In this document: in pieces, positions 17,999-31,578 of the stretch | How positions within the stretch are numbered: position 1 is the first letter of the stretch | Layout of the letters: every line of letters starts with the position of its first letter | From: Methanolobus mangrovi | GTDB lineage: Archaea > Halobacteriota > Methanosarcinia > Methanosarcinales > Methanosarcinaceae | Assembly (NCBI RefSeq): GCF_031312535.1 | Contig: NZ_CP133594.1 | Location: 1,426,001-1,490,000, forward strand | Length of the DNA: 64,000 nucleotides | Direction of reading: 5' to 3' | Translations under genes and position numbers: made by a program | The notes under the pieces: generated by a model | What the model was told of the DNA's origin: nothing | What the model saw: only the letters and a program-made list of their open reading frames with translations | Database searches by the model: none

Positions 17999-20551
17999 AT
18001 GGCACAACTTGATGTAAATTCAGAAATTGTAAAAGTCGTTAATGACAGTCCTGTGACTATATTCATATGGAAGCCAGAAGAAGGGTGGCCAGTAGAATTT
18101 GTCTCAGAGAATGTCAAACAGTTTGGATATTCATCTGAAGAGTTTCTTTCAGGCAGATTAAAGTATGAAGATATAATCCATCCTGATGACATTGAACGTG
18201 TACACAGAGAGGTTACTGAATACTCTGAAACATGTGTTGATAATTTTGTTCAGGAATATAGAATATTAACGCCATCCGGTGAAATACGGTATGTTGACGA
18301 CAGAACTATTGTTCGGAGGGATGAGAGCGGTAATATTCAGTATTATGAAGGTATTATACTTGATATAAGCCAGCGAAAACTCTCTGAAAAAATAATAGAT
18401 TGCCGCAATCAGATTCTTGAGGGCTTGGCGTCGGGTGAAACTCTTAATGAGATTCTCGCACGTTTGGTGAGATCAACTAAAAGACTTATACCGGAAGCAA
18501 TCAGTATTGTCATGTTACTGGATGAGGAAAAGAAACATCTGGTTCATGCTATTTCTCTTGATCTTCCGGATTTTTACAAAAAAGCTATTGAAGGACTACC
18601 CATTGGTGAAGGTATAAGTTCCTGTTCAACTGCTGTTTACACCGGGAAAAGGGTTGTTGTAGAGGACATAATGGAGCATCCATACTGGGATGATCTTAGG
18701 GAAGTTGCAGTCCAGGCAGGCATTAGGGCTAGTTGTTGCGAACCCATAAGAAGTTCGAATAATGAGATATTTGGAACTTTTGGAATCTACTTCTGTGAAC
18801 CACACAGGCCTACAAAAGAAGAAATTGATATCCTAAAAGCAAATGCCAATCTCGCAGCTATTGCAATAAACAAAAAGAACGTATTGGATAATGCTATTGA
18901 ATCTGAACAAAAGCTTAAGATCATTCTCAATAATGTGAACGATCAGATCTATATAAGTGAACTTGACGGAAAAACACTCGCTGTTAACCAGGCCGTAGTA
19001 GATACATTGGGTTACAGCAGAAACGAGATGTTAAATTCCTATCCAATCGACATAATTCCCGCAAAAGATGTGCGTCAAGTGTCAAAACTTATGAAGAAGA
19101 TCGAAAAGGATGGAAGGGCGGTATACGAGACCGAGGCTATACACAAGGATGGCAGGAGAATACCGCTGGAAGTCAGTGCCCGATTTATAATATATGATGG
19201 GAAGAAAGTCATCCTGTCAGTTGCCAGAGACATCACTGAGCGCAAAAGAGCCGAAAGAAAGCGCCGGCTTGAAGAGGAAAGGCTTGAAGCTCTTGTTAAA
19301 CTAAATAGAATGACAGGTGCATCGTTGAATGAGATCACCGATTTTGCAAGGGAAGAAGCTGTAAGGCTTACTGAAAGTACGCTTGGATACCTTGCGTTCA
19401 TGAATGCAGATGAAACAGCTCTTATTATGCATTCCTGGTCGAAAAGTGCTATGAATGAATGTGGTATCAAAGACAAACGTTTCGTGTATCCTATAAAGAC
19501 TACCGGGTTATGGGGTGAAGCAATAAGGCAGCGCAGACCTATAATCACAAATGATTACTCTCATCCAAGTCCTATGAAAAAGGGATACCCTGAGGATCAC
19601 GTGGAACTTACCAGGCATATGAATATTCCGATATTTGATGGTGACCATATAGTTGCCGTTGCAGGTGTTGGCAATAAAACAGAAGATTATGATGAATCAG
19701 ATGTACGCCAGCTTACCTTATTGATGCAGGGCATGTGGAATCTCATTCAAAGAAAACAAATAGAAGATGCCTTAAAACAATATTCCGATGAACTAAAGAT
19801 GGCAAATGAGGAACTAAGGTCCATTAACAGAATGAAGACCGAGTTCATTGCAGAAAGGCTGGAGTTTATAGATGGTCCTGAGCGTGCAGAGTGCGGTATC
19901 TTTGATGATGAGATGGTCATGGCTATTGATGATCAGCAGGCAAAAGCTATCGATTCCGTATTGCTTAACTCTGAAAGATTGAAACGTATGGTAAATTCAC
20001 TTCTGTATATGAGTCAGGAACAGGCTGGAAAGATTGTATATACTTTTTCCCAGACGCATGTGGACAAACTAATATCTGAAGCCTTGATGAATCTTATATT
20101 ACTAATAGATGAGAAAGGAATTGATTTAGAAGTTAATGTACCTGAGGGATTACCGACAATAAGCTCTGATAAGGATAAACTGACTCAAACATTGATAATT
20201 ATTATAGATAATGCGATCAAATTCACTCCAGAAGGGGGAAGAATAAACATAGATCTGAGTGAAGAAAGTGCCCATCTGCACTTGAGGATATCTGATACGG
20301 GGCCAGGTATACAAAAAGATCTTATTCCGCATATCTTCCAGAAATTCTATCAAATGGAGGACTCAATGAGTCGAATGTACCAGGGACTTGAATCCGGTCT
20401 GTACATCTGTAAAGACATAATCCTTGAACATAAAGGGGAGATATGGATCGAAAGTGAAAAGGGTAAAGGAACAACATTCCACATAAGGCTTCCAATAGAG
20501 GTTGCGGAAGGCGATTCCACGCAGAATATCAAACGTGAGATGATGGCATGA
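17999..20551 (+). CDS. MsmS/RdmS-like PAS-GAF-PAS-GAF sensor kinase lacking the phosphoacceptor His
   Basis: The 850-aa soluble protein has PAS1 (~10-125), GAF1 (~140-300), PAS2 (~305-425), GAF2 (~440-590) and a HATPase domain (~690-840; N box DNAIKFTPEGG, G1 SDTGPGI). GAF2 contains MNECGIKDK and GLWGEAIRQRRPIITNDY with a later RHMNIP. In MsmS and RdmS of Methanosarcina acetivorans the second GAF domain binds heme through a Cys, so a heme role here is plausible. The dimerisation helix reads NRMKTEFIAERLEFID, with Glu where the His should be, and G2 is degenerate (GLESGLYI). It overlaps the Msr regulator by 4 nt. No clear Shine-Dalgarno precedes the ATG. Confidence 0.85.
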   Translation: MAQLDVNSEIVKVVNDSPVTIFIWKPEEGWPVEFVSENVKQFGYSSEEFLSGRLKYEDIIHPDDIERVHREVTEYSETCVDNFVQEYRILTPSGEIRYVDDRTIVRRDESGNIQYYEGIILDISQRKLSEKIIDCRNQILEGLASGETLNEILARLVRSTKRLIPEAISIVMLLDEEKKHLVHAISLDLPDFYKKAIEGLPIGEGISSCSTAVYTGKRVVVEDIMEHPYWDDLREVAVQAGIRASCCEPIRSSNNEIFGTFGIYFCEPHRPTKEEIDILKANANLAAIAINKKNVLDNAIESEQKLKIILNNVNDQIYISELDGKTLAVNQAVVDTLGYSRNEMLNSYPIDIIPAKDVRQVSKLMKKIEKDGRAVYETEAIHKDGRRIPLEVSARFIIYDGKKVILSVARDITERKRAERKRRLEEERLEALVKLNRMTGASLNEITDFAREEAVRLTESTLGYLAFMNADETALIMHSWSKSAMNECGIKDKRFVYPIKTTGLWGEAIRQRRPIITNDYSHPSPMKKGYPEDHVELTRHMNIPIFDGDHIVAVAGVGNKTEDYDESDVRQLTLLMQGMWNLIQRKQIEDALKQYSDELKMANEELRSINRMKTEFIAERLEFIDGPERAECGIFDDEMVMAIDDQQAKAIDSVLLNSERLKRMVNSLLYMSQEQAGKIVYTFSQTHVDKLISEALMNLILLIDEKGIDLEVNVPEGLPTISSDKDKLTQTLIIIIDNAIKFTPEGGRINIDLSEESAHLHLRISDTGPGIQKDLIPHIFQKFYQMEDSMSRMYQGLESGLYICKDIILEHKGEIWIESEKGKGTTFHIRLPIEVAEGDSTQNIKREMMA

Positions 20552-21333
20552 AACTGGCTTTGTTAGGTACTCTTTTTCTCTCAGACAAAAGAAAAGATCT
20601 CCTCCTTCTGCTGATAGAAAGACCTATGAACATCGATGAGATCAAAAGCACACTTAATGTCACGTCCAGTGCTATGATGACGCAGATAAAGATCCTCATT
20701 GATCAGGGCATAATACTTTATGAGAATGATCAGTACCGACTTTCCAGTTTTGGTGAAGTTATTGTAAAGAAAATGGTCCCTCTATTAAATACCTTAATGG
20801 TCTTTGAAGACAATAAACAATACTGGGAAAATCATAAGGTAAAAGGTATTCCGGCACATCTTCTAGAGAGTATAGAAGAGCTAGGTTCCTGTGAACTTGT
20901 TGAGCCGGAACTCAATCGTATGTATGAATTGCCGAAAAAGTTCACCGACAATCTTGTACAGTCAAAATATATCATGGAAATCTCCTCTTCATTCAGCCCT
21001 ACTTATCCTTATAAATACATTGAACTTGCCAGGAAAGGTGTCCGAATCTCACTCATAATAACAGAGTCTGTATTTGAAAGATTTGAAACGGAGTATTCCG
21101 AACAATTGAAGGATTATCTCGGGATGGAAAATACGGAACTTTTTGTGTGTAAAGAGGATATTGATTTTGCCTCAAGTGTAGTAACAGACAGATTCCTTTC
21201 ATTGACACTGTTCTATAAGAATGGGATGTTCCACAATCATGCTATGATGAGTTTTGAAATGGATGCATTGAAGTGGGGAGAAGATATGTATCAGTTTTTC
21301 AGGCAGGCAGCACAAGAAGTGACTGGTCTCTGA
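20548..21333 (+). CDS. Msr/FilR1-type winged-helix regulator (DUF1724)
   Basis: The 261-aa protein has an N-terminal ArsR-like winged helix (LLGTLFLSDKRKDLLLLL, INVTSSAMMTQIKILIDQGII) and the FilR1 middle domain (~130-255, including VTDRFLSLTLFYKNG). Msr proteins of Methanosarcina of this architecture activate methyltransferase genes. It overlaps the sensor kinase (ATGA) and precedes the corrinoid-methyltransferase fusion, the arrangement known for methyl-sulfide methyltransferase loci. It most likely controls the gene at 21681; whether the kinase passes a phosphate or a conformational signal to it is unknown. Confidence 0.88.
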   Translation: MKLALLGTLFLSDKRKDLLLLLIERPMNIDEIKSTLNVTSSAMMTQIKILIDQGIILYENDQYRLSSFGEVIVKKMVPLLNTLMVFEDNKQYWENHKVKGIPAHLLESIEELGSCELVEPELNRMYELPKKFTDNLVQSKYIMEISSSFSPTYPYKYIELARKGVRISLIITESVFERFETEYSEQLKDYLGMENTELFVCKEDIDFASSVVTDRFLSLTLFYKNGMFHNHAMMSFEMDALKWGEDMYQFFRQAAQEVTGL

Positions 21334-21680: not shown

Positions 21681-23588
21681 ATGAAAACAGCAATCTTGAA
21701 CCAATTAGCGGAAGCTGTGGTCGAAGGTGACGACGACCTGGCAGAAGAACTTTCACAAAAAGCCCTTGAAGAAGGTATCGATCCTTACGAGGCGATTGTG
21801 GACGGACTTGCAAAAGGAATGATCATTGTAAGTGACAAATATGAAAAAGGTGAAGCCTTTGTGCCACATCTGCTCATCGCATCCGGTGCCATGTATGCAG
21901 GTATGGACATACTGACCCCACATATGAAAGTAGAAGAGGGTGCCGGAAAGCGTTCTATTGGTGTGATTGGTACTATCGAAGGAGATGTCCACGATATCGG
22001 AAAGAACCTTGTCAAGACAATGATGTCTGCATCCGGCTTTGATATGGTCGATTTGGGACATGATGTGCCGGTCGAGAAATTCATAGAGGTGGCGAAGGAG
22101 AAGAAAGCAGACTTTGTTTCCATGAGTGCCTTGATGACCACTACCATGACCAACATGGAAAGAGTAATTGAGATGCTGCAGGAGGAAGGTATCAGAGATT
22201 CCCTCATAGTCATGATAGGAGGAGCACCTGTTTCCCCTGAATTCGCAGAAAAGATCGGTGCAGACTCTACACACTCTGATTCCATGGCGGCTACGGAATG
22301 GGCAAAGGATGCGGTAAGCAAACTTGCTCCTGCTGAACAGAGATGGAGCGAAGAGAAGATCTCACTTGGTAAGGTCAAATACAGAGAGATCCTGTCTAAA
22401 AAGAAGGTCAAAGGAAAGACAGACATCGGTCTGGAAACTGCGAAGCAGATCATTGCAGACTTTGAGAGTGTAGCTGTCAAGACAAAGGAAGAAATGACCC
22501 ATATGGACAGGACACTGGCAGCAATGGGCGACAAAAAGGTCGACAGATTACCGGTATATCCTCTTGCCTGTGGAGTACTCAGGAAATTTGCCGGTGTTAA
22601 TTACAAGCAGTATGCCACTGACATCAATGCGTTTGTTGAGAGTGCTTACCTGGGATCCAAATATCTGGATACAGACATGTTCGTAGGGCTCATAGATCTT
22701 TCTGCAACATCATCTGACTTTGGATGTAAGATAAAGTACCCTGAAGATGACACACCTTCATCTGAAGGACACCTTGAGGCATATGAACAGATTGAAGTTC
22801 CTGAGGTCAAGGAAGGTACTCGCGCCTATGAACTTATAATGGCTTCCAAGGCGGCTACTGAGAAACTTAACAAGGAACTCAATACACCATTTGTCGGATT
22901 CCATGAAGGTCCTCTGCTTACCCTTACCCAGCTCATGGGTGCAGATCGTGTCCTGATGGATATGAAGACACATCCTGATGTGGTGCTTGAAGCTGTCCAG
23001 AAATGTACAGATTACATCTGCCAGGTATCTGAACTGTTCTTTGAAGAAAGTGCCTGTAATGCACTGTGTATCGATAACCTATGGTCCAACAACGTAATCA
23101 TGGACGAAGAGGACTACTGGAAGTTCGATGGAAAGTTCGTATATGACCAGCATTTGCCAATATTCAAGAAATACGATCAGCCATACATAATACACAACTG
23201 TGCAGATGCAGTACACTATGAAACACAGATCAAGAAATTCGGAACTCAGTTGTACAGCTACGCATACTATCCAAAACTAAGGAGCAAGGGATCACAGAAC
23301 TATGCAGACCTTATTCCAAAGTATGGCGATATGTGCTGTATGATGGGAGAGGTCAACCCTGTAGAGTTTATGGATAATACCCCTGCAGGTGTTCAGAAAA
23401 TAAAGGATGACACTAAAGATCTGCTTAAAGGTGTGCTCCCCGTACTCAAGGAGAACGGACTGCAATCCAAGTATGTAATGGCATCTGGTTGTGAGATACC
23501 ACCTGGAGGACCTCTTACGACCGTGAAGGCAATGGTGGACACTGTAAAGGAACTGGGTCCTGACCTTCAGAAACAGATATTCGGATAA
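21681..23588 (+). CDS. Corrinoid protein / UroD-type methyltransferase fusion (MtsD/F/H-like)
   Basis: The 635-aa fusion protein has residues ~1-210 as a corrinoid carrier (helical cap, then IEGDVHDIGKNLV with D-x-H-x-x-G, and MIGGAPVSPEF). Residues ~270-630 are a UroD/MtaA-type barrel with zinc ligands H-x-C (YIIHNCADAVH) and the later Cys in ASGCEIPPGGP. Methanosarcina MtsD, MtsF and MtsH have the same two domains and act in methanethiol/dimethylsulfide:coenzyme M methyl transfer. Start 21681 has GGAGG 8 nt upstream. It sits behind the Msr/FilR1 regulator and kinase, again as in mts loci. The substrate is inferred from this likeness. Confidence 0.88.
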   Translation: MKTAILNQLAEAVVEGDDDLAEELSQKALEEGIDPYEAIVDGLAKGMIIVSDKYEKGEAFVPHLLIASGAMYAGMDILTPHMKVEEGAGKRSIGVIGTIEGDVHDIGKNLVKTMMSASGFDMVDLGHDVPVEKFIEVAKEKKADFVSMSALMTTTMTNMERVIEMLQEEGIRDSLIVMIGGAPVSPEFAEKIGADSTHSDSMAATEWAKDAVSKLAPAEQRWSEEKISLGKVKYREILSKKKVKGKTDIGLETAKQIIADFESVAVKTKEEMTHMDRTLAAMGDKKVDRLPVYPLACGVLRKFAGVNYKQYATDINAFVESAYLGSKYLDTDMFVGLIDLSATSSDFGCKIKYPEDDTPSSEGHLEAYEQIEVPEVKEGTRAYELIMASKAATEKLNKELNTPFVGFHEGPLLTLTQLMGADRVLMDMKTHPDVVLEAVQKCTDYICQVSELFFEESACNALCIDNLWSNNVIMDEEDYWKFDGKFVYDQHLPIFKKYDQPYIIHNCADAVHYETQIKKFGTQLYSYAYYPKLRSKGSQNYADLIPKYGDMCCMMGEVNPVEFMDNTPAGVQKIKDDTKDLLKGVLPVLKENGLQSKYVMASGCEIPPGGPLTTVKAMVDTVKELGPDLQKQIFG

Positions 23589-23684: not shown

Positions 23685-23747
23685 CCCATCTCCACAAAAG
23701 GGGGGTAAACCGCCCAACCTCCACATAACCCCTCCACATAAAAGGTG
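23685..23747 (+). promoter_or_regulatory. Leader with three CTCCACA repeats before the hydantoinase-family gene
   Basis: CTCCACAAAAGG, CTCCACATAA and CTCCACATAAAAGG occur in a row (from about 23693, 23720 and 23732), with GGGGGGTAAACCGCCC between the first two. The last copy contains the AAAGGTG used as ribosome site for ATG 23754. The repeats could be a regulator site or an RNA element; no known riboswitch was recognised. Confidence 0.35.
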
Positions 23748-23753
23748 ATAAGA

Positions 23754-25688
23754 ATGAATCTTGGACTTGGCATAGACACTGGCGGCACATATACAGATGC
23801 TGTAATAATGGATCTTGAAGATGGATCAATAATAGATTCAAACAAATCGCTCACTACTTACCCTGATCTGATAACGGGAATAATTAATTCAATTGATGGC
23901 CTTAAAGCCGAATATCTTGCTAATGTGAGATTCACTTCAGTATCCACCACACTTGCCACCAACACCACGCTGGAGGGCAAGGGATACCCGGCAGGTCTCA
24001 TACTCATAGGGTATAATATATCCCGGAAAATTCCAACAGACCATATCCTTTCCATAGAAGGCGGGCATGATGCTGATGGAAATGAAATGGAACCCCTGGG
24101 CAACCTGGGGAATGTGAGGGAATTTGTAACAACTAACCAACATAAGGTATCATCGTTTGCTGTATCATCGTATTTTGGAGTACGCAACCCGGAACATGAA
24201 CTTATGGTCAAAGAGATGATCCAGGATCTGACAGATCTCCCCGTTGTTTGCGGACATGAACTTTCCATGGAACTTGGAGCCTACGAAAGGGCTTTGACAG
24301 CACTTCTTAATGCTCAGCTGATCCCGGTAATAGACCAGTTCATAAGGTCTGTAAGGTCTGTGATGCAGAATAAGAACATCAATTCGGTCTTAATGATGAT
24401 GAAGTGTGACGGGTCGCTGGTCAGGATCGAAGAGGCACTGAAAAAACCAGTAGAATCCATTTTTTCCGGACCTGCTGCAAGCCTGTTGGGAGCTGCACAT
24501 CTGACAGGCCTTAAGGACTGCCTGACCGTAGATGTGGGAGGGACAAGTACGGATATCTCTATGATCCTCGATGGCATGCCTGCCATCAGCAGTTCAGGTG
24601 CTGTGGTCGGCGATTGGGATACAATGGTCAAGGCTATCAAAATGAATACGTCTGCCATTGGAGGGGATAGTCATGTGTGGATGAAGGAAAAAGCGCATAT
24701 CGGACCTACCAGGGTCATACCCCTATGTCTTTGCGCTGCCGAATTCCCCTCCATACTAAGTAAATTGCAGCATGCTGAAAAGTTCTCAAGTCGCATAATG
24801 AACGATATCATCCAGCCAACAACATTTTTCATGTCCAATGGAGCAAAATCCCATTCCCTGCACTCCTCTGAACTGGAGATAGAAGAGATGGAAATATTCG
24901 ATGCAATTACAGACGAACCATCCTCTATATCGGATATTGCCTCTAAGACAAATAAGCATGCTCTGATGTTCGAAGGTATCCTGAGAAAGCTCATACAGAA
25001 AAGATATGTAAGACAGGTAGGCTTCACCCCTACTGACGTCCTACATGTGACCGGTGACTATACAAGATGGGATTCCAGTGCATCGATGCTGGGGGCCTTG
25101 GTCCTTTCAGAATATACTTCCATAGAACCCTTTGATCTCTGCACCAAACTCAAAGAAGATGTTGCCAGAGAAATCGTACTCAATCTCATTGCACACTGTG
25201 CAGATAAAGTGAAGAAAACATATCTGGAAAAAATATTGACAGGCACAGAACTAATGAAATTCACGATAAAAACCCCTGTGGTAATGGTAGGTGCTCCGGT
25301 AGCCCCATATTTGAAAGATATGAAATATTTCATTGATGCGGACATAAGACTTCCGCAGTACCATGAAGTGGGTAACGCTGTAGGTGCACTTGTCGGTAAT
25401 GTGGTGTACAGGGAAGAAGTGCTGATAAGGCCAGCAGGTCCGGGAAGTTCACAATATCTGGTATTCTCCGAAAAAGGAAGACAAATGTTCGATGATTATC
25501 AGGATGCTCTTGACATGGCCAATTCCCTTGTCAACAGCACAGTTTCAGAGTATATGTCCGGCTACGGATTAAGTATGGATAATGTAAGGTTCGATCTTGA
25601 ATGTAATAATATCGGGAGTATTGGAACAGTACCCCTTGAGACAAAGATTGTAGGGGTAGCCGTTGGTTCCCCCAGGAGGGTAATATGA
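23754..25688 (+). CDS. Hydantoinase/oxoprolinase-family ASKHA ATPase
   Basis: The 644-aa protein resembles HyuA/oxoprolinase: phosphate-1 motif GLGIDTGGTYTDAVI, ESIFSGPAASLLGAAHLTG and phosphate-2 motif CLTVDVGGTSTDISMI. The later half differs from catalytic hydantoinases: a winged-helix-like stretch (ISDIASKTNKHALMFEGILRKL) and EVGNAVGALVGNVVYREEVLIRP near the C-terminus. There is no HyuB-like partner gene. Instead it overlaps a chaperonin-like gene by 4 nt and lies in a corrinoid operon, so an ATP-dependent role in cofactor or methyltransferase activation is more likely than hydantoin hydrolysis; this is inference. GTG 23745 is in frame, but ATG 23754 is better spaced from AAAGGTG. Confidence 0.8.
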   Translation: MNLGLGIDTGGTYTDAVIMDLEDGSIIDSNKSLTTYPDLITGIINSIDGLKAEYLANVRFTSVSTTLATNTTLEGKGYPAGLILIGYNISRKIPTDHILSIEGGHDADGNEMEPLGNLGNVREFVTTNQHKVSSFAVSSYFGVRNPEHELMVKEMIQDLTDLPVVCGHELSMELGAYERALTALLNAQLIPVIDQFIRSVRSVMQNKNINSVLMMMKCDGSLVRIEEALKKPVESIFSGPAASLLGAAHLTGLKDCLTVDVGGTSTDISMILDGMPAISSSGAVVGDWDTMVKAIKMNTSAIGGDSHVWMKEKAHIGPTRVIPLCLCAAEFPSILSKLQHAEKFSSRIMNDIIQPTTFFMSNGAKSHSLHSSELEIEEMEIFDAITDEPSSISDIASKTNKHALMFEGILRKLIQKRYVRQVGFTPTDVLHVTGDYTRWDSSASMLGALVLSEYTSIEPFDLCTKLKEDVAREIVLNLIAHCADKVKKTYLEKILTGTELMKFTIKTPVVMVGAPVAPYLKDMKYFIDADIRLPQYHEVGNAVGALVGNVVYREEVLIRPAGPGSSQYLVFSEKGRQMFDDYQDALDMANSLVNSTVSEYMSGYGLSMDNVRFDLECNNIGSIGTVPLETKIVGVAVGSPRRVI

Positions 25689-27319
25689 GCACTTCACTGG
25701 AATATGCAGGAAATATGAATGCAGGGAACATGAACAGTATGAATGCACTGGATAATATGGATGCTCTGCGTCAGAGTGTGCGCAATCGTATCGGGATCAA
25801 GGATGATGTTGAAGAAGATGGTCTGATATACGAGATGCTACATGCTTCCAGAGATATTAAGGATCTTCTTGTATCCTCTTTTGGGCCACGTGGCTCGAGC
25901 AAGATAATAATCAATCCTACAGATGACATTTTCCTGACAAGTGATGGAAAGACCATAATCGAACAGATCGATGTGTTGCATCCTGTGGTCACGTCCCTCA
26001 AAGAACTTGCCATGTCCATGGACAGAGTATGTGGAGATGGTACAAAGACCGCAGTGATCATCGCTGCTTCTCTTATTGAGAATGCTGCTAAACTCGTGGA
26101 TATTGGCCTGCATCCGACAACCATCATAAAAGGATACCAGCTTGCTCTGAACAAAGTGTACGATATCCTCAACTATGAGAGTATTCGGATAAGTTCTGAC
26201 AGTGATCTTCATTCTGTCATAGAGAATGCCAGCCTGAGTAAAGGGGTTGAACCCCATCAGGCCCGGATAATAGCTGATATCGTTCTAAAAACACTTGCAA
26301 TGATCAGGGATACCCATGGTGATGGTCACATAGATCTAAACGATTATGTCAAAGTTATAAAAAAGGTAGGTGCTCCATCTATAGAATCTATTTCAGGAAT
26401 GGTCCTGGATGAAAGACCTGCAAGATCAGACATGCCTTATCACCTGGAAAATGCAAGCGTTCTTATGATCAATGGCAATGTGAAATTTGAGAGTAAGATC
26501 ATAAATTCCCAGCGCAATCTAAGAATAGATGATCTCGCCGATCCAAAGCTGATCTTGCATGGACAGGAACGAAATTTGAAAGCCATGTCACAGAAGATAA
26601 TTGATTCCGGGGCTAACCTTGTCTTTTGTGAAGGAGATGTGGATGAATCTATTGAGGCATCACTTGCAAAACATGGGATTCTACTTTTCCAAAAACTGAA
26701 GATAAGGGATATGGAGATGGTCTCAAAGGCAACAGGTGCAAGTATTCTTTCCATCAGGGATGATATACTTCCTCATAATCTGGGTTTTGCCGATGAGGCG
26801 AAGGTAGAGAAAAGAAACGATGAACATTTCCTTTTTCTTTCTGTCAGTGATCAGCTGATATCCACGATTATGATATGGGAGCCTTTCAGGTATGGTCTTG
26901 AAAAGATAGAGGAAGCAGTAGATGATGCAGTCAACAATGCTGCATTCATACTGAAGAATCCTATTGCCGTCAGAGGTGGAGGGGATGTCGAATTTGTGCT
27001 CTCACAGATGCTCAGGCATTATTCTTCCACGATTGTTGGGAAAGAGCAACTTGCAGTTATCGAATATGCAAACGCCCTTGAAGAGATTCCCAGAACACTT
27101 GCAAGAAACGTTGGTCTCAATGAAGTGGATACGATAACGAAAATGCTCAACTCCTATAACAAGGGAATAGACTGCAGGATCGACCTTAGCCGAAATGTCA
27201 TTGCCAATGACCCTCCTGTATATGATTCTTTCAGCATTAAACAAATGGCTATTATCGCGGCGACTGAGGCTGTAAGCAATATGTTGAGAATTGATAAGAT
27301 CGTATTGAAAAAGTCCTGA
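25685..27319 (+). CDS. Divergent group II chaperonin (thermosome/TCP-1-like)
   Basis: The 544-aa protein spans equatorial-intermediate-apical-intermediate-equatorial domains. Conserved are SSFGPRGSSKIIINPTDDI (thermosome LGPKGMDKML...), the nucleotide motif GDGTKTAVI (normally GDGTTTAVV), the second equatorial region EEAVDDAVNNAAF with its catalytic Asp, and RGGGDVEFVLSQML. The N-terminus is Met/Asn-rich and the usual Gly/Met C-terminal tail is missing. It is far from a housekeeping thermosome subunit. Divergent group II chaperonins beyond the ordinary thermosome subunits have been described in Methanosarcina acetivorans. Its place between a hydantoinase-family ATPase and a methyltransferase suggests a dedicated client. 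GGAGG precedes the ATG. Confidence 0.85.
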   Translation: MSTSLEYAGNMNAGNMNSMNALDNMDALRQSVRNRIGIKDDVEEDGLIYEMLHASRDIKDLLVSSFGPRGSSKIIINPTDDIFLTSDGKTIIEQIDVLHPVVTSLKELAMSMDRVCGDGTKTAVIIAASLIENAAKLVDIGLHPTTIIKGYQLALNKVYDILNYESIRISSDSDLHSVIENASLSKGVEPHQARIIADIVLKTLAMIRDTHGDGHIDLNDYVKVIKKVGAPSIESISGMVLDERPARSDMPYHLENASVLMINGNVKFESKIINSQRNLRIDDLADPKLILHGQERNLKAMSQKIIDSGANLVFCEGDVDESIEASLAKHGILLFQKLKIRDMEMVSKATGASILSIRDDILPHNLGFADEAKVEKRNDEHFLFLSVSDQLISTIMIWEPFRYGLEKIEEAVDDAVNNAAFILKNPIAVRGGGDVEFVLSQMLRHYSSTIVGKEQLAVIEYANALEEIPRTLARNVGLNEVDTITKMLNSYNKGIDCRIDLSRNVIANDPPVYDSFSIKQMAIIAATEAVSNMLRIDKIVLKKS

Positions 27320-27331
27320 TGGAGGAGTTAA

Positions 27332-28447
27332 ATGCCTGATGAAATGACTTCAAAAGAACGTTTTATCAACGCTCTTGAATTAAAAGAGGTGGACAGGGTC
27401 CCACTGGGTTATTTGTGGTTCGGAGCTGGTGATGCAGTACTTGAGCGGATGAATACAAGCATGGAGGATGTTTATTATTCTGCAAAAGGGATTACAAGAG
27501 CACAGGTATTAGCAAGGGAAATGTATCACCATGACAATGTAATGTCCCCCTGGGGATGTTTGCTAGTGGAAGCGGAGGCCTTTGGGGCTAAAATAAACAT
27601 CAAAAAAGATGCTTACCCTTCAATAGCCAGTTTTCCTCTAAAGTCTGCAAAAGAATATGAGAATATTGATCCAGTTGTCATTGAACGCTCTGAAAGAGTA
27701 AAGACCATTGAAGAATCCATATCCATGCTCAAAAAACAGCTTGGAGATGAGGTTTTTATTAGCTGTGCACTTCTCACCCCCCTCATGCTTGCTTCCCAGT
27801 TAATGGATGGGAGCAGGATGTACATTGAAATGATGAAGGATCCCGATAATTTTCATGCACTTCTTGATGTCCTCACTGATGGTTGCATCACCTTTGCAGA
27901 TATGTTGCTTGATGCAGGAGCAGACGGTGCATTCATTGAGAATGGTGGCAGCACTTCAGATCTTTTCAGTCTTGAAATGGCAAAGGAATTTGGTTTTGAG
28001 TACTCTAAGAAATTATATTCACACATACAGGACAGCGGCGGTTATGTAATATCGCATAACTGTGCAAACCATGCATTCCATGAACTGGAAATGGCTCTTG
28101 AACCTGATGCTTTGAATTTCTTTTTTGGGAATGTGGAAACACTCGGAGAAAAGTATGGGATCGATTGCCTGAAGATCCACAATCATAAACACGTTGGTTG
28201 CAGGGAGAGATATTGTTTCAGGGATCTCAAAGATTTTAATGATCCAGGTGTATGCCTGATGGGAAATATCAATCCCTATGCATTCTGTTCAGGAAGGCTT
28301 GACGATATCGCTGCCGAAGTAAAGAATTGTATGGATGCGGCTCCTGATAAGGGGTTCATACTATCCACTGGATGTGAGATACCACTGAATACACCTCAGG
28401 AAGAGATGGGAATTCTCTGGGAATCAATGAAATCTTGTTTTAAGTAG
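27332..28447 (+). CDS. UroD/MtaA-family methyltransferase
   Basis: The 371-aa TIM-barrel protein has TSKERFINALELKEVDRVPLGYLWFG at its start. Its metal ligands match MtaA-type enzymes: H-x-C in YVISHNCANHAF and the later Cys in LSTGCEIPLNTPQEE. It therefore should bind zinc and activate a thiol or move a methyl group to or from a corrinoid. GGAGG precedes the ATG, 12 nt after the chaperonin stop. It is closer in motif style to the C-terminal half of the fusion protein at 21681 than to the MtaA-like enzyme at 30535. The substrate is unknown. Confidence 0.85.
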   Translation: MPDEMTSKERFINALELKEVDRVPLGYLWFGAGDAVLERMNTSMEDVYYSAKGITRAQVLAREMYHHDNVMSPWGCLLVEAEAFGAKINIKKDAYPSIASFPLKSAKEYENIDPVVIERSERVKTIEESISMLKKQLGDEVFISCALLTPLMLASQLMDGSRMYIEMMKDPDNFHALLDVLTDGCITFADMLLDAGADGAFIENGGSTSDLFSLEMAKEFGFEYSKKLYSHIQDSGGYVISHNCANHAFHELEMALEPDALNFFFGNVETLGEKYGIDCLKIHNHKHVGCRERYCFRDLKDFNDPGVCLMGNINPYAFCSGRLDDIAAEVKNCMDAAPDKGFILSTGCEIPLNTPQEEMGILWESMKSCFK

Positions 28448-28457
28448 GGGGAATAAA

Positions 28458-30080
28458 ATGTATGGAATTGCCTTAGATGTGGGAACTAGCGGCTTTAGGG
28501 CGCAGTTGATAGATCTGGAAACAAAAGAAGTTGTCAAGACCTCAATGACAATGAAACATCCGTTGCCAGGTGGGAACGTGACTGATCACCTTGACTTTGC
28601 CATATCCATTGGAGAAGATGTGGCACATAGTATAATCATAGATGCTGTCGGAAAAATGATCGAAGGATTCGCTGTAGATCCATCGCAGATATCAAAGATG
28701 GCTGTCTGTGGTAACCCTATACAGCTCTCTCTTTTCCAGAATTCGGAGATACGTGATCTGGCCTATGTGGGGAGAAATATGCGAAAAAGACTGGGCATAG
28801 ATAACGTACAACGTGATGCCCGAATTTTCAAAGCCACGGATATATTCCATGGAATCCTGAACCTTGTGAATTGTTTGATATTTATCCCGCCTGCAATCGA
28901 GCATGAGATCGGGGCTGATGCGCTTGCCATGATGATGGCGACGGATTTTCTTGAACAGGAAGAACCAACCCTTGTAACGGATTACGGAACGAATGCCGAG
29001 ATGGCCATAAAGGTTGGCAACAGGATAATCACAGGAAGTGCTGCAGCCGGACCTGCTATAGAAGGACAGGGAATCAGTTGCGGTATGCTTGCAGCTCCGG
29101 GAGCGATCACGGATGTTGATCTGGAAAATGGTTTCTGGAGAATATCTGTACTGAATGAGAGTATGGATGTTGTAAAAGGTCATCTTATTGATCCGATAAG
29201 CGGAACGATACTTGAAGGGTCTGATATAGTACCGGCTGGTATTACGGGAACTGGTCTTATTTCTATATTGTCTCTTGCAATAGAAACAGGAATTATAATC
29301 AGTCCACCTAAACTAAAGTACGGGAAGATCAAGCTTGGTGACGGTATCGAGGTATCAGAAGAAGATATAAAAGAGGCTGGTAAGGCTATAGGTGCCATAA
29401 GGGCTGCTCAGTTGACCCTGATACATGAATCAGGGATCGACTATGAAGACCTTGGGACCATGTATATGAGCGGTGCTTCCGGAACCTATGTCGATCCTGC
29501 CAAAGCAAGGAAAATAGGCTCATGCCCTGATTTTACAAAGAGAACAGTGCAATTCGGGAACACATCCCTGGCTCTTGCAAGAGACATTGTTATTGAGAAG
29601 GTAAAGCTTGATGTGCTGATAGAATTGGCAGGAAATATAAAAGCTGATCATCTTATGATGGCAACCAGTGAAACCTTCAAGAAGCTCTATGCCTGTGAAC
29701 TGGGATACTGGACAGAAGGTATGTCTATGGAGATGTACCGGAAACTTTTGAAGATGTCTAAATTACCTGAGCTGCCTGCTCCGGTTGCTTATCCTATGTT
29801 TGAGAAAAGGGTTACTAAAGATATCAGTGAGGCCGGTACCGGCCAGGTAGAAGTAATAGAGGACATAGGTGTCACTCTTGAAGAACTGGCAGTAGGGTGC
29901 ATAATGTGCCACAGATGTGAAAAAGAATGTCCTGAGCATGCGATATTCATAAAAGCTGATGATGATCTCTTTGCAGAGTACAACTCCTTGAAATGTCTGG
30001 GAACGGCGTGCAAAAGATGTGTGACTGTGTGTCCGGTGCATGCAATTGACTACAAAGAGATAAAGATTATGGAAAGCTGA
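28458..30080 (+). CDS. RamA-like reductive activator of corrinoid proteins
   Basis: RamA uses ATP and electrons to return Co(II) corrinoid proteins to Co(I). The 540-aa product has an ASKHA ATPase body (GIALDVGTSGFRAQLIDL; VTDYGTNAEMAIKVGNRI; GSAAAGPAIEGQGISCGM). The C-terminus has two [4Fe-4S] binding sets: CIMCHRCEKECP (~480) and CLGTACKRCVTVCP (~515). Unlike bacterial RACE proteins the ferredoxin part is C-terminal, as in Methanosarcina RamA. AGGGGG precedes the ATG. It presumably reactivates the corrinoid domain of the fusion protein at 21681. Confidence 0.9.
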   Translation: MYGIALDVGTSGFRAQLIDLETKEVVKTSMTMKHPLPGGNVTDHLDFAISIGEDVAHSIIIDAVGKMIEGFAVDPSQISKMAVCGNPIQLSLFQNSEIRDLAYVGRNMRKRLGIDNVQRDARIFKATDIFHGILNLVNCLIFIPPAIEHEIGADALAMMMATDFLEQEEPTLVTDYGTNAEMAIKVGNRIITGSAAAGPAIEGQGISCGMLAAPGAITDVDLENGFWRISVLNESMDVVKGHLIDPISGTILEGSDIVPAGITGTGLISILSLAIETGIIISPPKLKYGKIKLGDGIEVSEEDIKEAGKAIGAIRAAQLTLIHESGIDYEDLGTMYMSGASGTYVDPAKARKIGSCPDFTKRTVQFGNTSLALARDIVIEKVKLDVLIELAGNIKADHLMMATSETFKKLYACELGYWTEGMSMEMYRKLLKMSKLPELPAPVAYPMFEKRVTKDISEAGTGQVEVIEDIGVTLEELAVGCIMCHRCEKECPEHAIFIKADDDLFAEYNSLKCLGTACKRCVTVCPVHAIDYKEIKIMES

Positions 30081-30119
30081 CTTTTCCAGTACTTTCGACC
30101 GTAGATAAGGAGGATATCA

Positions 30120-30434
30120 ATGACAGAAGTAAAGGTAAATTCCAGGATATGTGGGTTCACCCATGTAGTCAGGGGAAAAAGGGATGGTCAAAAGATAATT
30201 GTTGATATTGACACTCCATGTGAGAAGATCAAAAAAATGTCTCATCTGGAAGTCGATATGATGGATCTGTTCGATATAAAAGATAATCTTGTAATGGAAA
30301 AAGCTAAAGAGGCCAGGTGTACTGCCACATGTCTTGTGCCCTGCGCAGTGATGCATGTCTGTTGCATCGAAGCAGATTTTATGTCGGGTACACTTGCCAA
30401 AGATACAGGAAGCGTCGGTATCGAGTTCCTATAA
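30120..30434 (+). CDS. Small cysteine-containing protein of the RamA operon (DUF6951-like)
   Basis: The 104-aa protein has conserved-looking Cys: SRICGFTH near the start, DTPCEKIKKM, and a cluster ARCTATCLVPCAVMHVCCIEAD near 70-85. This resembles a small family, which I recall as DUF6951, often encoded near corrinoid activators; the name is tentative. AAGGAGG precedes the ATG at good spacing, so it is a real, well-translated gene of this operon. The Cys cluster suggests metal or Fe-S binding. Function unknown. Confidence 0.75.
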   Translation: MTEVKVNSRICGFTHVVRGKRDGQKIIVDIDTPCEKIKKMSHLEVDMMDLFDIKDNLVMEKAKEARCTATCLVPCAVMHVCCIEADFMSGTLAKDTGSVGIEFL

Positions 30435-30534
30435 CCCACTCCTTAGTCAAAGTGAAAAACGTTATTTAATATTATAGACAGATACCCGAAATACAAGTAC
30501 TTTAAATGGATGGTATTATATTAGCGAATCGAAA

Positions 30535-31578
30535 ATGAGTCTCTCTAAAAAATTCCAACATATACTTGATGGAAAAAAGGTTGATACTCCTCTAGTAGGC
30601 ACAGTTACAACATCAGGAATACTTGACCTGATGGATATTTCCAGAGCTAGCAGACCTGAGGCCGACAGGGATCCGGTAAAAATGGCAAAGCTTGCATCTT
30701 CCTTACATACGGTTGCAAAGTTTGAGGTCATACGCATTCCATTTGATGTGACGTTGATAGGCGAGGCACTTGGATGTCAGATCGATTTCGGCACAAAGGC
30801 AAGAACCCCGTCAATAATTACTCATCCTTTTGAAAATAATCCTGCAGATTTCGATGTCCCAACTGATTTGCTGGGGCGGGGAAGGATACCTGTTGTAATG
30901 GAAGCAATATCCCTTCTCAAAAGTTATCATGGATTACAGGTACCTTTAGTTGCAGGTATTGAAGGGCCTGCTGACCTTGCTTCTTATCTTTGCAGCATCA
31001 AATCATTTTTGAAGTTGACTATAAAGGAACCTGAAACTGCAAGGAATATTATCGAAAAATGCATCGATGCCTGCATTACTTGTGCCAATGCCTATCTTCT
31101 TTCAGGTGCAGATGCGGTTGTGGTTGGAGATGCTCTGTCCTCCCCGGAGATGATGGGTCCTGATGCATTCAGAAGAATTGTAAAACCTGCGTTGATCAGG
31201 TTCAATAAAAGCATAAGTGGCCATAGTATACTTCACATATGCGGCGAAACGGATAGTATTATGCCAGATATACTTGAATGTGGTTTTAGTGCTATAAGCA
31301 TCGAAGAAAATGTGAAGGATCTGAAATATATGGTCGATTGTGCACACAGAAGCAATACAGCGATAATCGGAAATATTTCAACGGCCGACACCCTGTATAG
31401 AAAAACAGCGGAAGATGTCAGAAAAGAGGCCTTGCAATGCCTGGATGCAAATATAGATATACTTGCTCCCGGTTGCGGTATGGCTCCCGAGACGCCTTTA
31501 GAGAATATTCGGGCTATGGTCAAGTCGAGGGACGAGCATGTTGAAAAAATGTTCCGATTCAAAAAAGGCCCTGAATAA
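30535..31578 (+). CDS. Methylcobamide:coenzyme M methyltransferase, MtaA/MtbA-like
   Basis: The 347-aa UroD-family protein matches the CoM methyltransferases MtaA, MtbA and MtsA. Features are GIEGPADLASYL, the zinc H-x-C in HSILHICGETDSI and the third ligand in LAPGCGMAPETPLEN. It would transfer the methyl group from a corrinoid protein to coenzyme M. There is no Shine-Dalgarno; a TATA-like CTTTAAATGG at 30501-30510 is placed for a start close to the ATG, so the mRNA may be leaderless and separately controlled from the RamA operon 100 nt upstream. Confidence 0.9.
   Translation: MSLSKKFQHILDGKKVDTPLVGTVTTSGILDLMDISRASRPEADRDPVKMAKLASSLHTVAKFEVIRIPFDVTLIGEALGCQIDFGTKARTPSIITHPFENNPADFDVPTDLLGRGRIPVVMEAISLLKSYHGLQVPLVAGIEGPADLASYLCSIKSFLKLTIKEPETARNIIEKCIDACITCANAYLLSGADAVVVGDALSSPEMMGPDAFRRIVKPALIRFNKSISGHSILHICGETDSIMPDILECGFSAISIEENVKDLKYMVDCAHRSNTAIIGNISTADTLYRKTAEDVRKEALQCLDANIDILAPGCGMAPETPLENIRAMVKSRDEHVEKMFRFKKGPE

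Follow-up and report, generated by a model that had tools for sequence, protein, structure and literature searches.

A group II-related chaperonin encoded beside Mts-type corrinoid/methyltransferase fusion proteins in methanogens and Archaeoglobi

The Mts enzymes form the route by which methanogens convert dimethylsulfide and methanethiol to methane. In bacteria a chaperonin relative encoded together with a single C1 metalloenzyme has been described; this is MmoG of the soluble methane monooxygenase operon, which is proposed to fold or assemble that enzyme (PMC9324122). We describe here a gene with a similar kind of association in the archaeon Methanolobus mangrovi, whose genome is complete (2.62 Mb). 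In the window analyzed (64,000 nucleotides of contig NZ_CP133594.1, positions 1,426,001 to 1,490,000), a gene for an Mts-type protein that fuses corrinoid and methyltransferase domains (called "the fusion" below) is followed by genes for a HyuA-like ASKHA ATPase and a chaperonin-like protein, which we call HYU and CPN, respectively. MmoG is a GroEL-like group I protein with a di-iron client, whereas CPN is archaeal and group II-related, with a presumed corrinoid client and an altered ATP pocket. CPN resembles the thermosome in its full-length Cpn60_TCP1 homology and (in the Methanosarcinaceae) in its catalytic aspartate, but it is set apart by low identity, a separate clade, a lysine in the phosphate loop, an N-terminal extension, the lack of a Gly/Met-rich tail, and its linkage to one enzyme.

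Our searches were confined to one archaeal phylum, with a sample of 186 genomes from the order to which M. mangrovi belongs, and a CPN was called at E ≤ 1e-80 (the three ordinary thermosomes of M. mangrovi score 2e-74 or weaker). CPN is present in 47 of these genomes and the fusion in 53, and all 47 of the CPN genomes carry the fusion. Across 60 genomic regions every one of the 49 CPN genes lies on the same strand as a fusion gene and no more than 3.1 kb from it (median 2.1 kb). The usual order is fusion-HYU-CPN; the mtsF-type loci have fusion-CPN-CobW GTPase, often with a small open reading frame between the first two, and at two loci (L087 and L110) CPN precedes the fusion but is still within that distance of it. 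The linkage holds at loci that have no HYU gene, and in five genera that mix genomes with and without these genes, CPN and the fusion go together. Three genomes with the fusion and no listed CPN (G161, G166 and G170) have contigs that stop 48–75 codons into CPN, at two loci each, as would be expected if near-identical gene copies break an assembly. In three others (G121, G122 and G175) the contig stops just behind or inside the fusion, before CPN itself could be seen, and CPN is likely present there too. A contig scan with exact short peptides of CPN, which is an insensitive method, found three Methanolobus loci only.

The same pairing occurs in a second lineage. The phylum-wide search with CPN gave one further relative, in genome G455, where the CPN gene lies 8 nucleotides behind the fusion, and a search with the G455 fusion led to genome G333, in which CPN directly follows the fusion after a 12-nucleotide gap. 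We assign these genomes to the class Archaeoglobi from their gene content and from the existence of known methylotrophic Archaeoglobi (PMC10945360). CPN and the fusion are confined to these same two of 59 Archaeoglobi genomes, which belong to different genera, and the two genes are adjacent in both. The first-pass annotation of this DNA had supposed that the chaperonin belongs with the fusion, and no CPN gene away from a fusion was found among all of these genomes; the link between CPN and the Mts-type fusion is strongly supported.

Since CPN is found only in genomes that have the fusion, and beside it, its probable role is that of a helper reserved for the assembly or repair of the corrinoid enzyme. 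We consider it rather likely that CPN is a dedicated maturation factor for the Mts-type fused corrinoid/methyltransferase proteins, and infer the following client and mechanism. CPN would form a ring that takes in the new or damaged fusion, with its corrinoid-binding domains and TIM-barrel methyltransferase, would either fold it or keep it open for corrinoid binding, and would then release it. ATP would power this cycle in the Methanosarcinaceae, and the Archaeoglobi form probably retains the holding function only. The RamA-type activase encoded in the same operon would reduce the bound cobalt to Co(I); HYU, which is common to other corrinoid systems, would probably act in cofactor release or activation, and CobW-type GTPases are possible cofactor handlers.

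Several points weigh against a dedicated maturation factor. A conserved neighbourhood is a functional link and does not show the client. Unfused corrinoid methyltransferases built of the same domains work without CPN, and MtsF/CmtA has reportedly been studied in recombinant form, which would speak against a strict need for CPN in folding. The several CPNs of one genome are not always alike, as the third CPN of genome G160 is only 55–56% identical to the other two. Finally, a folding cycle driven by ATP cannot be common to all CPNs, since the Archaeoglobi ones lack the residues with a putative catalytic role.

The roles of Asp60 and of the catalytic Asp386 in group II chaperonins are well known. 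The Asp60 equivalent is kept in all of the Methanosarcinaceae CPNs that are complete at that site, and the equivalent of Asp386 in all 48 (table 1). The sensor lysine, Lys161, whose role in group II chaperonins has been described (PMC5220055), is kept in the Methanosarcinaceae CPNs of our smaller alignment. In both Archaeoglobi CPNs, on the other hand, a lysine replaces the first aspartate (the Asp60 equivalent), serine or asparagine replaces the catalytic one and the sensor lysine is gone (the motifs are KKGK or RKGK, GDGVK or RDGVK, and NS or NN); judging from these two draft genomes, they probably do not hydrolyze ATP and would be natural pseudo-ATPase chaperonins. All of the CPNs have further changes in the pocket, in that the thermosome motif NDGAT has become [S/N]DGK (with Arg for the Lys in one CPN), and the position of Lys121 in the phosphate loop is lysine in 19 of 19 aligned CPNs and other residues in the 14 thermosomes. 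The invariant T121K change, the Lys/Arg at position 89, and the Archaeoglobi losses would all fit a second explanation, which we regard as possible but doubtful, in which CPN has given up folding and is a pseudo-chaperonin (a ring or a scaffold) that keeps the fusion, and perhaps RamA and HYU, in place while corrinoid is loaded or the enzyme is reactivated, and that cycles ATP little or not at all. On this view a folding ring would have been converted to a chamber in which the members of one enzyme family are loaded with corrinoid or reactivated, with a lysine-modified pocket and, in the Archaeoglobi, no ATP hydrolysis. Its neighbours RamA, HYU and the CobW-type GTPases, which are known or plausible cofactor handlers, are also in keeping with such a scaffold, but the retention of Asp60, Asp386 and the sensor lysine in the Methanosarcinaceae argues against it, as does the alignment of CPN with thermosomes over its full length. 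A cysteine just before the phosphate loop, Cys116 (26030-26032), is present in 47 of the 48 Methanosarcinaceae CPNs and both Archaeoglobi ones; the compared thermosomes have alanine or valine there.

CPN matches positions 1–489 of the 490 in PF00118, and thermosome structures align with its residues 52–543, yet it is only about 31% identical to the thermosomes of its own genome and scores below the curated thermosome cut-offs (338 versus 450 for alpha, 331 versus 400 for beta and 336 versus 671 for thermosome_arch). GroEL models reach at most 75 bits on CPN, against 338 for the thermosome models, and descent from group I is not indicated. In a tree, 19 CPNs, including the two from Archaeoglobi, are split from 14 thermosomes by a branch with 100/100 support and do not fall among them, and the thermosomes of the Archaeoglobi genome G333 group with the other thermosomes, away from the CPNs. 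We regard CPN as an offshoot of the group II (thermosome) lineage that makes up a family of its own, with an altered nucleotide pocket. An explanation that we think unlikely is that CPN is an inducible extra thermosome subunit, which alters ring composition and client choice on methylated sulfur compounds. Methanosarcina does have several thermosome paralogues (PMC4350412), and M. acetivorans is listed with five group II subunits, M. mazei and M. barkeri with three each (PMC5220055), but the long separate branch of CPN, its own N-terminal extension, the absence of a Gly/Met-rich tail and the location of its gene beside the fusion gene rather than thermosome genes all speak against such a subunit. 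Genome G148, which is probably M. acetivorans, has five group II chaperonin matches, two of which are CPNs, and the two extra M. acetivorans subunits are probably these CPNs; this is a likely answer to why that species has five and the other two have three.

Several CPNs were compared within each of seven genomes, and in every one of these two or more copies are 89–97% identical, whereas the mtsD- and mtsF-type fusions of these genomes are only 53–57% identical. For example, the CPN pair of G148 is 96.8% identical and the corresponding fusions are 55.0% identical, and the similar tract between its loci extends over 3.8 kb at 89.6%. In the tree each CPN pair of G148, G155 and G160 groups together within its own genome, a pattern that points to gene conversion or a recent duplication, and hence to one CPN protein that may serve the fusions of several loci in a genome. 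CPN is interrupted at three loci (L078, L082 and L098) and eroded at a fourth (L084), and an intact copy has been kept in the genome (L077, L081, L097 and L083).

The M. mangrovi fusion has its corrinoid domains and an MtaA/UroD-type domain in one chain, and scores 218.4 with TIGR02370 (cut-off 215.3). It is 80% identical to one G148 fusion (L074, probable mtsD), 69% to a second (probable mtsH) and 56% to a third (probable mtsF), where the mts names are based on the order and position of the genes; L075, in particular, has the same order as the mtsF-mtaCB2 region of M. acetivorans described in PMC11619418. In that report MA4384-MA4394, from mtsF to mtaCB2, is one contiguous cluster that is co-regulated on depletion of HdrED, and by gene order CPN should fall inside it, although the text does not name it. 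According to PMC11619418, redox or thiol stress also elicits a response from the Mts genes. That CPN has only a regulatory or stress link to them, as a co-expressed general protectant with no specific client, is nevertheless very improbable: a general chaperone would need far less than the exclusive linkage seen in both archaeal lineages under several different gene orders, and no CPN was found standing alone.

In a search of non-subscription literature we found no paper that ties a chaperonin to Mts proteins or describes a chaperone for them. If it is a dedicated maturation factor, CPN would be among the few group II chaperonins with one natural client, and well suited as a model of client specificity. 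Its gene can serve to flag Mts loci in genomes, and the protein may be what is lacking when the fusions are to be made in other hosts. The Archaeoglobi forms without the usual ATPase residues offer a test of whether hydrolysis is needed at all.

The first-pass annotation had described a tightly packed operon of five genes with a trailing MtaA gene; all of these genes are in place and their families are backed by domain searches (table 1). HYU and CPN overlap by 4 nucleotides, and the gaps that follow are 12 (CPN to UroD), 10 (UroD to RamA), 39 (RamA to DUF6951) and 100 (DUF6951 to MtaA) nucleotides. The strong ribosome site that it had given each gene stands for most of them, where purine-rich GGAGG-type sequences precede the start, but not for every start. 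HYU is taken to begin at the ATG at 23754, and a GTG at 23745 is a second in-frame candidate. The arrangement is conserved in relatives and is therefore not due to chance; the UroD, RamA and DUF6951 genes vary among genera. The FilR1/Msr-type regulator gene is kept at most of the compared loci and is on the opposite strand in those of the mtsF type. The UroD protein scores 160.7 bits with NCBIfam PRK06252, under its cut-off of 244, and the RamA-type protein has C-terminal 4Fe-4S motifs (Fer4 matches) and qualifies as a RamA activase.

Table 1. Features of the M. mangrovi window (plain coordinates) and of related loci (coordinates preceded by a locus label)
Feature	Position	Strand	Family match or occurrence
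PAS/GAF sensor histidine kinase	17999..20551	+	upstream; kept at many relatives' loci
FilR1/Msr-type regulator (methyltransferase regulator family)	20548..21333	+	PF08350, 1.5e-38
MtsD-type corrinoid protein/methyltransferase fusion, presumed client	21681..23588	+	B12-binding_2, B12-binding, URO-D
HYU, HyuA-like ASKHA ATPase	23754..25688	+	PF05378 and first half of PF01968
CPN, chaperonin-like protein, group II-related separate clade	25685..27319	+	PF00118, 2.7e-116
CPN Lys89 codon (SDGK; thermosome NDGA)	25949..25951	+	Lys in 47/48 Methanosarcinaceae, Arg in 1; Lys in 2/2 Archaeoglobi
CPN Lys121 codon (GDGTK; thermosome GDGTT/S)	26045..26047	+	48/48 Methanosarcinaceae and both Archaeoglobi
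CPN Asp414 codon, catalytic Asp equivalent (Asp386)	26924..26926	+	48/48 Methanosarcinaceae; Ser/Asn in Archaeoglobi
UroD/MtaA-superfamily methyltransferase	27332..28447	+	PF01208
RamA-type ATP-dependent corrinoid reductive activase	28458..30080	+	TIGR04270, 737 bits (cut-off 500)
DUF6951 small Cys protein	30120..30434	+	PF22263, 1e-23
MtaA methylcobamide:coenzyme M methyltransferase	30535..31578	+	NF040654, 434 bits (cut-off 400)
Archaeoglobi-type CPN genes	L130:8045-9586; L139:2022-3617		beside Mts fusion
Three HyuA-like paralogues, M. mangrovi	L125:6887-16096		trimethylamine methyltransferase cluster
HyuA-like paralogue, M. mangrovi	L128:7678-9726		beside mcr operon and TIGR04083 radical SAM enzyme

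HYU shares its fold and N-terminal ATPase homology with the hydantoinase A-type ASKHA subunits and those of acetone and acetophenone carboxylases, but in addition to Hydant_A_N it covers only positions 1–144 of the 291 in the Hydantoinase_A profile, and no HyuB partner is present in the operon (a HyuA-HyuB fusion is encoded elsewhere in the genome, at L129); the half domain and missing partner rule out a true hydantoinase. Its AlphaFold2 model (predicted local distance difference test score, pLDDT, 87) has acetone carboxylase beta as its nearest fold (Z 32.1, 516 residues aligned, 4.2 Å), and also resembles diol dehydratase reactivase (2d0o; Z 18.1, root-mean-square deviation 3.8, 268 residues) and other ASKHA activators; the C-terminal half has no sequence matches among solved structures. 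Cys169, Cys221 and Cys259 (P0002 numbering) are the same in all 27 HyuA-like paralogues of an alignment, and the aligned N-methylhydantoinase and 5-oxoprolinase-type sequences differ there. DdrA, GlmL and RamA/RACo are likewise ASKHA ATPases, and they act on B12 or corrinoid proteins. HYU has a weak match to the GlmL profile, but unlike these proteins it lies on the hydantoinase/carboxylase side by fold and sequence, and a role in the reactivation of corrinoid proteins is suggested for it by analogy.

The first-pass annotation had placed HYU in a corrinoid machine together with the chaperonin. Its association with corrinoid genes held up, in that a corrinoid protein gene lies within 9 kb of five of the seven HYU paralogues of M. 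mangrovi, versus 8.7% of the genome (binomial p 9e-5, which overstates their independence because three of the five share one trimethylamine cluster). Another paralogue shares an mtaCB cluster with genes for RamA and a CobW-type GTPase, and a further one is at a site that has no corrinoid genes. The radical SAM gene near the mcr-side paralogue was considered as the corrinoid-dependent Mmp10, but it is TIGR04083 and was therefore not counted as corrinoid evidence. An obligate pairing with the chaperonin did not hold up, as HYU is within 300 nucleotides of CPN in 32 of 49 cases, is absent beside it in mtsF-type loci and in the Archaeoglobi, and serves other methyltransferase clusters too. From this placement the family looks like a general corrinoid-cluster ATPase.

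The small DUF6951 protein has four invariant cysteines (Cys11, 34, 67 and 71), and its gene adjoins that of RamA, an iron-sulfur protein. Foldseek gave no match at E < 0.001 for its AlphaFold2 model (pLDDT 77); the best VIA-align matches of the model are IscU/SufU scaffolds, with Z of 4.9 at most, a hint that it may be IscU-like. CobW/COG0523 GTPases, which may be corrinoid or metal chaperones, are encoded behind CPN in the Methanosarcina-type mtsF loci (L075:9075-10178 and L080:3666-4733), and one is encoded between RamA and MtaC in the mta cluster of M. mangrovi (L126:2857-3990).

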